Part shown: positions 26,090-28,812 of the stretch, piece after piece
Layout of the letters: each line of letters starts with the position of its first letter
Position numbering within the stretch: position 1 is the stretch's first letter
Source: Diplonema papillatum
Taxonomy: Eukaryota > Euglenozoa > Diplonemea > Diplonemida > Diplonemidae
Direction: 5' to 3'
Length of the DNA stretch: 64,000 bases
Assembly (NCBI GenBank): GCA_030068145.1
Contig: JAPJBO010000535.1
Location: 91,904 to 155,903, forward strand
Position numbers and translations under genes: made by a program
The notes under the pieces: generated by a model
What the model was told of the DNA's origin: nothing
What the model saw: the letters and a program-made list of their open reading frames with translations, nothing else
The model's database searches: none

Positions 26090-28812
26090 ATGGGTTCGTG
26101 CGCAGCAAAACCGGACTCCGGAAAGACCGGAAGCAACCCGCCAGCGAAGAAGGGGCCGGCAGCGATATCAGCGCCCCAGGGGGACCGGGAGCAATCCGTG
26201 AAGCTTGCTAACCCAACGGATCAGCAACCAAAGTCGCTCGACGGACCGAAGGACGACACTGCGGAGGATGCCACACAGAATACGTCGCCGAACGTCCCAC
26301 CCGCGCTTGCCATCAGGCAGGACATATTGGAAATGAGTGACTCGGCAGTCGACCGCTTTTTCGACGCCGTCAACCAGATGATGGTGAATAAGGCCGGCCC
26401 CGGCACGTCCGAATTTTTCCGTTGTGCCTCGTACCACGGAGAGCCTTCCCCGTCGTATTGCCACCACGGCATTGAATCGTTCCCGGGATGGCACAGGATG
26501 TACATGAAGGAGTTCGAAAACGCGTTGCGAGCGGCGGACATCGAGTTGGGGAACGACGGGGACGTTTCACTGCCGTTTTGGGAGTGGAACAGCGAGGAAG
26601 GGTCGAAAGGCGTTCCAGAAGTGGTGCGGAAGAGGTTCACGGGGTGGCCAGAAGGCTTTTGGCCGGAAGATCTCAAGAAGGAGAAGTATACGCGTCGGTT
26701 GAAGCGTGCCGAGCAGCAGGCGATTGCACAGTTGATCACCTCGACCGGCGTCCGCGAACAAGCTGTCGACTGCATGCGCGCGCACGAACACTGGGCTTTC
26801 GCGTCTAAGAAGTCGGGCAATCTCGCTCCGCCGTCGTTGGAAGTCCCCCACGACTCAATCCACGTCATCGTCGGCGGGAACGGCGGCCAAATGGGCGCCG
26901 TCAGCTGGGCTGCATACGACATCGTGTTTTGGCTGCATCACAGCAACATCGACCGCCTGTACGAAGCTTATCTCCGGCTCGAACCCGATTCCGCCGACGA
27001 GTTTGCGAATCATCAGTCAACGCAAGAAACCAACCGCTTCACCGCACCGCTGGAGCCTTTCAAAAAGGAGGACGGGTCGTTCTTCACAGCGAAGGACACG
27101 TTCGACACCAAAGCCCTTGGTTACGAGTATTCGAGACTGCCCGCAGAGTCCGCTGCGACGAGGAGTCTGCGGCGAGAGCCGCCGACACTGGTGATCTTTC
27201 CCGACTTGCGCATCCATGAGTTCGAGTCAAAGTGCTACCAGGTATGCGGTTTGTTTGATTCCGAAGCAGAGGTGACTCACAAGTGCGACAGAAACGGCCC
27301 CTGCACGGGAGACTGGCTTTTTCATATTCCCAGCTAAAGTCACATGCCTACCGGCCAACCCATAGAGCGAGGAAGAGAAGTAAAAACAAGATGCGCAAAA
27401 CAAAGCGCAAGAGAAATATGCCTTGTGCAGCAACCAACCTGTAACAGACCGCAAGCCCCAGAAGCGTGACCAATAGAAACAGTCGGAGAAAAGAAAAGAA
27501 GAGATATGAAACCGGGTTAGGTGAGAAATGGGCCAGAAATCATTCATTCCTGCGACAACCTAGAGAGCAGGTCGACCAGTTCTCTTCACTCTTTTCGTCT
27601 CTCTCTCTCTCTCGGGTATTCTGCATCAAACCCCACCAGGTCCACGTTTTCCTGGTCGGAAAGGACGAGCTGCCGCAATGGACCTGTCCGAAGACCGCGC
27701 GCGACATAAACTACGCATCGCCGAACTATGCAGGAGGGCAAGGCATTTTCGGCAGGGGGTCCAGCTGCGGCAATTGCGTGGCGAGTCCCGCCTATGATAT
27801 GGTCATCGACGTCACGAAAGCCGTCAAACGTTTGGGGGTCAGCAGATACGACGTGGCACCAGTCGTTTGCCTCGTTGAAACGACGAGTGAAGACGAGACT
27901 GTCTTACAGCGAGAAGACACCCCCTTGCCGGCACCGTTCATTGTAGGACCGTTGTTCGAAGACCTCGAAAATGACGTCGACCTTGAATCATCCAATCGCG
28001 ACGGCGCTGGTCTCAACGAGATAAAGGCACTCCAGGCGTATCTCCAGCAGTTTGGGTATTACGATGCTCCCGTCGACGGTATCGTCGGCGCCATCACTCA
28101 GCAAGCGCTGGTGGACTTCATGAATGCTACAGGCAAGCTGTCCGCAGATGCCTCCACCCGCAAACTGACTGCGCAGACCAAACACATCATGGCGACGTTC
28201 AAACGCTGTAGGAACAAGGACCCCTTCGCGGAGAACGACATCTACGACGAGCTCAGCGCCACAGATTCAAGAGTCTACACGGACAAGACGGAATTGACGT
28301 ATCACATTGGTGTCCAGCCGGGATACTTGAAGAGACCACTCTGCGAAGAGGCGATCGCGAAGGCCGTAGCCACGTGGGCAGATGCTTGCAAGCTATCGTT
28401 CGAAAAGGTGGATACAGCAGAGCACGCAGACATTGTGTTCAAGTGGGTGCAGTTCAAATCGCCGGATGACGTGCAAAGGTTTGATGGCGTTGGTGGCGTT
28501 CTCGGAAGAGGCGGGAACGGGTTTGTTGAGTTCGACTTGGCCGAGAGGTGGGTGCCTGGAATACCCGACAGCGAACCTTCGCGGCTTCTGGGCACAGTGT
28601 CTGATCTTGACGACCAAAGCACTTGGTTTGCAGTAGGAACGCATCCGCGCGTCTCGCTTTACCACGTTGCCCTTCACGAACTCGGTCACTCATTAGGCCT
28701 CCAGCACTCAAACCATCCAGGAGACCTCATGGCACCGTACTACAACCCCAACACATCATCTTTGTCAGAAAATGATGTTTCCAGACTACAAGCCATTTGG
28801 GGCATTCCATAG
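26090..28812 (+). CDS. Tyrosinase-peptidoglycan-binding-matrixin fusion protein
   Basis: Exons 26090..27241 and 27640..28812 join in phase 0 to 774 aa. Residues 105-145 hold the CuA region (H116, CHH at 124-126, WHR with H135). Residues 252-295 hold CuB (PHDSIH with H254/H258, and FWLHHSNIDRLYEAY), as in type-3 copper phenol oxidases. A beta-rich segment with VHVFLVG and Cys residues spans the splice junction, resembling the C-terminal domain of tyrosinase/haemocyanin. At about 509-560 is a PG_binding_1-like fold (LQAYLQQFGYYDAPVDGIVG), then RCRNKD, a possible degenerate cysteine switch. The matrixin domain follows with FDGVGGVLG, the zinc site HELGHSLGLQH (from H730) and Met-turn LMAPYY. Tyrosinases oxidise phenols; matrixins cleave matrix proteins. 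The LAHA motif usual in matrixins is replaced by LGRG. The N-terminus MGSC lacks a signal peptide but suits N-myristoylation plus palmitoylation. Role unknown. Confidence 0.85.

Follow-up and report, generated by a model that had tools for sequence, protein, structure and literature searches.

We followed up a tyrosinase–matrixin gene of Diplonema papillatum, which lies at positions 26,090 to 28,812 of a 64,000-nucleotide stretch of contig JAPJBO010000535.1 (assembly GCA_030068145.1, positions 91,904 to 155,903, forward strand), here called the window. Its product appears to carry two dormant enzymes in tandem, a latent tyrosinase and a pro-matrixin. We propose, with a probability of roughly 40%, that the unlatched matrixin cuts the loop between the tyrosinase core and its shield domain and frees an active tyrosinase for sealing, melanisation or killing. 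The gene structure, the anatomy of two proenzymes (from two modelled relatives) and the retention of catalytic and latency residues come from sequence or from predicted models.

In this mechanism, the C-terminal shield domain of the tyrosinase would hold it closed, and the pro-matrixin would be complete and dormant, with a peptidoglycan-binding-like (PGB-like) prodomain, a zinc-blocking Cys switch and a catalytic domain. What we infer is the anchoring to a membrane, the cut, where it falls, what triggers it and which role it serves. An acylated N-terminus would hold the protein at the cytosolic side of a membrane, and some relatives have C2 domains. Cell damage or stimulation –calcium, membrane change, oxidation– would open the switch, and the active matrixin would then cut the loop in the same or a neighbouring molecule. 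The released tyrosinase would make the quinones for the roles named above.

Gene, domains and family

The preliminary description of this DNA proposed one two-exon gene with a phase 0 junction and considered a chimera of two neighbouring genes less likely, and both proposals held. The two exons (Table 1) join into a single open frame of 774 amino acids plus stop. The public EukProt model of the gene (P0001, 703 amino acids) is identical to the window protein over its whole length and uses the same splice. Moreover, 14 aligned homologues show no insertion over residues 378-392, around the junction between KCYQ and VHVF (in P0025, one of the 14, a single residue is missing at 382). P0001 ends at residue 703, upstream of HExxH, which could hint at a wrong gene model or an assembly chimera. 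However, past residue 703 homologues still align with the window protein, through the matrixin (SDLDDQSTW against SDLQDKSTW and similar), and therefore the 774-amino-acid reading is the better one. The same domains are also found in 24 further records from several sources, five of them with transcript-assembly names (P0003, P0005, P0008, P0022, and P0032). With homologues that have the same domains and an uninterrupted junction, chimera and assembly error were discarded, and we regard an artefact as extremely improbable. As a side observation, if the intron were retained, translation would run into it (27242-27337) and stop after 415 amino acids, giving a tyrosinase core that has lost most of the shield, which might be an isoform without the latch.

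At the domain level, Pfam retrieved Tyrosinase, PG_binding_1, and Peptidase_M10 in that order, as predicted, and all the motifs named beforehand were there: H116, H125/H126, H135, H254, H258, HHSNIDRL (H283/H284), HELGHSLGLQH at 730, and LMAP at 747. We read the two ambiguous copper positions as H126 (C124-x-H126) and H284, which from the usual motif reading are presumably the second ligand of copper site A (CuA) and the third of copper site B (CuB). The order tyrosinase, PGB-like part and matrixin stood, but the preliminary description had missed the tyrosinase shield, about 130 residues between the core and the PGB-like part. Besides, it had taken the PGB-like part for a module of its own, whereas this part occupies the place of the prodomain of matrix metalloproteinases (MMPs): the P0005 model matches the pro-MMP fold over about residues 422-671, and P0026 has the same order. 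Pfam gave no hemopexin match in the window protein.

For the tyrosinase half, residues were counted in a 37-row family alignment, using the rows that have a letter at the position. H116, H126, and H135 are kept in 28 of 28 rows, H254 and H258 in 31 of 32 (the exception is the truncated P0021), H284 in all 33, and C124 of the putative Cys-x-His thioether site in all 29. In the shield, the CxxC is kept in 34 of 34 rows and the plug position is Phe in 33 of 34 (Ile in P0022). The P0005 model matches the fold of the latent tyrosinases PPO4 and MelB through residue 403-405. The shield assignment rests on this fold match and on motifs, because the shield by itself, searched by sequence among solved structures, retrieved unrelated repeat proteins only and its profile alignment to P0046, P0047, and P0058 was not significant. 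By sequence and model, the window protein appears to have the six copper His, the Cys-x-His and the shield of a latent eukaryotic type-3 copper tyrosinase.

For the matrixin half, the other alignment rows keep H730 and E731 (30/30 each), H734 (29/30; P0009 is cut there), and H740 (29/29), and the Met-turn M748 is kept in 30 of 32 rows. The switch column, where the window protein has C574, holds Cys in 22 and Asp in 13 of the 35 rows with a letter, and two rows have gaps. A tree of 34 rows needs a single Cys/Asp change, with a split support of 100/100, and groups the window protein with P0005 (99/97). Since each row with the switch position keeps a residue of the zinc-blocking kind, selection seems to maintain latency in the family. 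For MMPs, switches of both types have been described, and karilysin is the example with Asp (PMC9629494). Judged from its sequence, the window protein has the M10 profile, the HExxHxxGxxH, the Met-turn and the prodomain switch expected of peptidase family M10.

Of 7994 candidates scored in a single-sequence search, 31 proteins reached E <= 1e-3 and 18 of these have all three Pfam domains; a profile search retrieved 54 proteins among 7992 and added seven three-domain proteins. Together they gave 25 distinct records, including the window's own P0001 and the likely chimera P0008. Since scoring in both searches was limited to the candidates with most words in common, the family may have further members. 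Two hosts are named: Volvox carteri (P0024) and Symbiodinium sp. KB8 (P0038, a partial record with no M10 annotated). P0025, P0035, and P0036 have tyrosinase and M10 without a PG_binding match, and other search matches are incomplete pieces, lone tyrosinases, or lone M10 or PG-binding proteins. Orthologues with the same order, proposed earlier as a check, are found in algae (Volvox among them) and in further microbial sequence collections; in aligned members, the pro-matrixin stands directly behind the shield. P0008, an MMETSP protein, starts like P0003 and continues like P0032, and is probably a transcript chimera; it was omitted from the alignments and the tree, and P0021, P0043, and P0044 were also omitted from the tree.

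Bacterial or viral origin of the fusion was considered and rejected, short of a proof of absence, on the loci of the best 80 of 296 prokaryote relatives and two viral contigs: their 4467 open reading frames of at least 80 amino acids gave no PGB and no M10 match to the family profiles, with 83 tyrosinase matches and one weak shield match. In a viral structure library, the top matches were MMPs and other metalloproteases, lower ones included phage peptidoglycan-binding proteins, and no tyrosinase was named among the 50 matches listed.

Cell location and related genes of the genome

Hydropathy –a crude measure, not a trained predictor– displayed no secretory leader at the start of the window protein. 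Within the first 45 residues, the highest 10-residue mean is 0.16 for the window protein and no more than 1.84 for the 13 relatives whose N-terminus is long, compared to 2.3-2.5 (first 35 residues) in leader-like tyrosinase copies of the same genome and 2.5-3.1 in five leader-like controls; some controls of Tat- or lipoprotein-like appearance lie at 1.6-2.05, a range that overlaps with the highest values of the family. The long-N-terminus set comprises 14 members with at least 60 residues before the tyrosinase start, chosen partly by eye, and most of the 39 rows first checked for leaders are without the full N-terminus. By this measure, the window protein seems to lack both the signal peptide of secreted MMPs and the leader of secreted wall-type tyrosinases. 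The hardening of a wall or cyst coat suggested in the preliminary description needs secretion, so it is not borne out. Secretion of both enzymes, with the protease loosening and the tyrosinase hardening such a coat, would agree with the extracellular location of tyrosinases and matrixins in many organisms, with the leader-like starts of three other tyrosinase copies of this genome, and with the overlap among the controls. We consider it quite unlikely given the hydropathy values of the window protein and its relatives, together with C2 domains in three relatives (P0022, P0036, and P0037) and C-terminal EF-hands in Volvox P0024, which point to the cytosol.

The window protein is probably on the cytosolic face of a membrane via an acylated N-terminus, as its sequence suggests. 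Its start, MGSCAAK, fits the PROSITE N-myristoylation pattern PS00008. Seven of the 14 long-N-terminus members start with MG, and four of these, the window protein among them, fit the pattern. The host genome has matches to N-myristoyltransferase (NMT). In the P0020 model, the tail 1-84, counterpart of the window tail, is of low confidence.

The genome of the window (271 Mb, 2910 contigs) has at least ten tyrosinase (PF00264) matches. The nine copies besides the window gene (five in tandem on C57, two on C17, one each on C4 and C290; Table 1) share this match with it, but in the surrounding DNA examined the family profiles matched neither a shield nor a PGB or M10 part, and none of the nine has a C-x-H at CuA, as read by eye. 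Both C17 copies and the C4 copy have leader-like starts. Besides, the C17 pair presents Arg and Asn at the expected His places of its CuA motif (YSRGTSAFLSWNR), and the C17 and C290 copies have Cys-rich CCGDG...DDGN tails. PF00413 and PF01471 were retrieved in the window gene only (1 of 95 and 1 of 4 scored candidates); a matrixin broken by introns could escape this search, although the NMT gene was nonetheless found, as two separate pieces.

Proposed self-maturation and its alternatives

For mushroom PPO4, a protease whose origin and type are not known must remove the shield, at a loop after the YG motif (PMC4157443). In the P0005 model, confidence over the first 560 residues is lowest in block 271-280 (66), which lies inside the matching loop. 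The pattern P-x-x-[LMI], an MMP-type cleavage site, is in the linker of 16 of 36 rows, vs. 3.8 expected from windows of the same proteins. With a pro-protease directly behind the shield and this pattern in the loop of those rows, self-maturation would be the likeliest reason for the fusion, by analogy with the fungal enzyme.

The two enzymes could instead be fused only for shared place and expression, with a matrixin that acts on other proteins and has no part in tyrosinase maturation. Each half has its own latency device, so the halves could be switched separately, and the pattern used gives no MMP-like site in the window linker; nevertheless, this alternative looks rather unlikely to us when the pro-matrixin directly follows the shield in aligned members and fungal shield removal requires a protease (PMC4157443).

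Self-maturation also has a more specific form, in which the on-chain matrixin would be the missing tyrosinase-activating protease, held by Cys in one clade and by Asp in the other. MMP Cys switches can be opened by oxidation. Among its references, PMC7226053 has a title on hypochlorous acid. In the Cys clade, the first tyrosinase to become active would produce quinones or oxidants that modify the switch Cys and unlatch more matrixin, and this would free more tyrosinase, making an intracellular, membrane-bound, all-or-none wound alarm; we put this form forward as somewhat unlikely.

Several observations weigh against the proposed mechanism. The P-x-x-[LMI] pattern is absent from its own linker, and the excess in the family is not independent because the rows are related. 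Protease activity is not assured because the structural-zinc His ligands are missing: the window protein has LGRGG and VEFD where MMP-2 has LAHAF and SHFD, and the structural zinc site of vertebrate MMPs has His ligands. In the tyrosinase half, HisB1+1 is Asp, as in 6 of 32 rows (Asn in 25). The Volvox carteri P0024 gene model has tyrosinase, PGB, M10, and EF-hands, and the plug and CxxC stretch of the shield is absent from it, either as a missed exon or as a real loss that leaves a member without a working shield. At the N-terminus, 4 of the 14 long-N-terminus members have neither an MG start nor a C2 domain and only 4 fit the myristoylation pattern, which is weak by itself because 2 of the 29 controls, which lack the fusion, likewise have an MG start and fit it.

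Finally, the closest fold and sequence matches of the core plus shield are molluscan hemocyanin units. Since the best fold match is a hemocyanin, oxygen binding without oxidase activity would be possible. A protein that binds oxygen or copper as hemocyanins do and has a protease for regulation, and is not an oxidase, would suit these matches and the retained plug residue; we find it very doubtful, a little more so than secretion.

The rest of the window and known systems

Elsewhere in the window, the minus strand at 31177-31309 holds a fragment of eukaryotic large subunit rRNA (model 2833-2984, 134.5 bits), either a pseudogene or a scattered rRNA piece; no other Rfam match at gathering score was listed for the window. 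This rRNA piece, the intron and the NMT matches of the genome mark the window as eukaryotic. A malic enzyme is encoded by one open frame at 58018-59736 (+); its best named relatives are from trypanosomatids (56% identity), with bacterial ones lower, and horizontal transfer is possible. A 1542-amino-acid frame at 1-4626 (+), open at the window edge, matches the NO VEIN C-terminal domain (E 8e-6). Large tandem repeats are found at 10630-12094 (17 bp x 86), 15362-16468 (204 bp x 5), 40449-41706 (35 bp x 36), and 62601-63641 (44 bp x 24).

Table 1. Features of the tyrosinase–matrixin gene (window positions) and other tyrosinase copies of the genome
Feature	Position	Strand	Basis or remark
Exon 1 (residues 1-384)	26090..27241	+	N-terminal tail, tyrosinase core, shield start; gt at 27242; identical to P0001
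N-terminal tail, residues 1-75, starts MGSCAAK, no hydrophobic leader	26090..26314	+	Hydropathy, pattern
Tyrosinase core, residues 107-295: CuA H116/H126/H135 with C124-x-H126; CuB H254/H258/H284; E251	26408..26974	+	Pfam (E 1.7e-31), alignment
Linker, residues 348-365, after YxY motif; candidate cleavage region	27131..27184	+	Analogy with mushroom tyrosinase loop (PMC4157443)
Intron, 398 bp, phase 0, inside shield domain	27242..27639	+	gt..ag; no insertion in homologues at junction
Exon 2 (residues 385-774 and stop)	27640..28812	+	Remainder of shield, MMP prodomain, switch, catalytic domain
Shield domain, about residues 366-497 (start in exon 1)	27640..27978	+	Fold match, motifs
Candidate plug F421	27748-27750	+	Alignment
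CxxC, C427/C430	27766-27777	+	Alignment
PG_binding_1 match, residues 510-544, at MMP prodomain place	28015..28119	+	Pfam (E 4.4e-7), fold match
C574 of KRCRNKD, MMP cysteine-switch position (Asp in sister clade)	28207..28209	+	Aligned with PRCG Cys of P0026
Peptidase_M10 catalytic domain, residues 599-772	28282..28803	+	Pfam (E 1.3e-28)
HELGHSLGLQH	28675-28707	+	Zinc protease motif; Met-turn M748
Five-tyrosinase tandem array	C57 420-447 kb		
Tyrosinase pair, identical from Met on over 924 amino acids	C17 469 and 482 kb		
1561-amino-acid frame with long APPT-type repeats	C4 597 kb		
Tyrosinase copy	C290 235 kb		

Both enzymes are of known kinds; what appears new is the double proenzyme, its probable place inside the cell and the division between Cys and Asp. 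By title or abstract start, no paper describing a tyrosinase-PGB-M10 fusion was found among those listed in a literature scope that leaves out most subscription journals. The in-cell activation of latent tyrosinases is an open question, as with the PPO4 protease (PMC4157443), and a pro-protease built in behind the shield makes it testable in a single molecule. Moreover, the family suggests intracellular matrixins in algae and other microbial eukaryotes and offers a natural Cys to Asp change of the MMP latency switch.

Compared to known systems, the latent fungal tyrosinases (Agaricus bisporus PPO4 and Aspergillus oryzae MelB) have no protease on the chain, and the distance from plug to CxxC is 8 residues in PPO4 (F454, C462) vs. 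6 in the window protein. Molluscan hemocyanins are oxygen carriers in secreted multi-unit chains, and their units, closest to the family's core plus shield, likewise have no protease. Karilysin, a bacterial MMP, has the Asp switch seen in 13 of 35 family rows and is a free secreted protease. Unlike proMMP-1, -3, and -9, the window protein has no leader, hemopexin match or structural-zinc His, and the family's matrixin is fused behind a tyrosinase, with an Asp switch in one clade.
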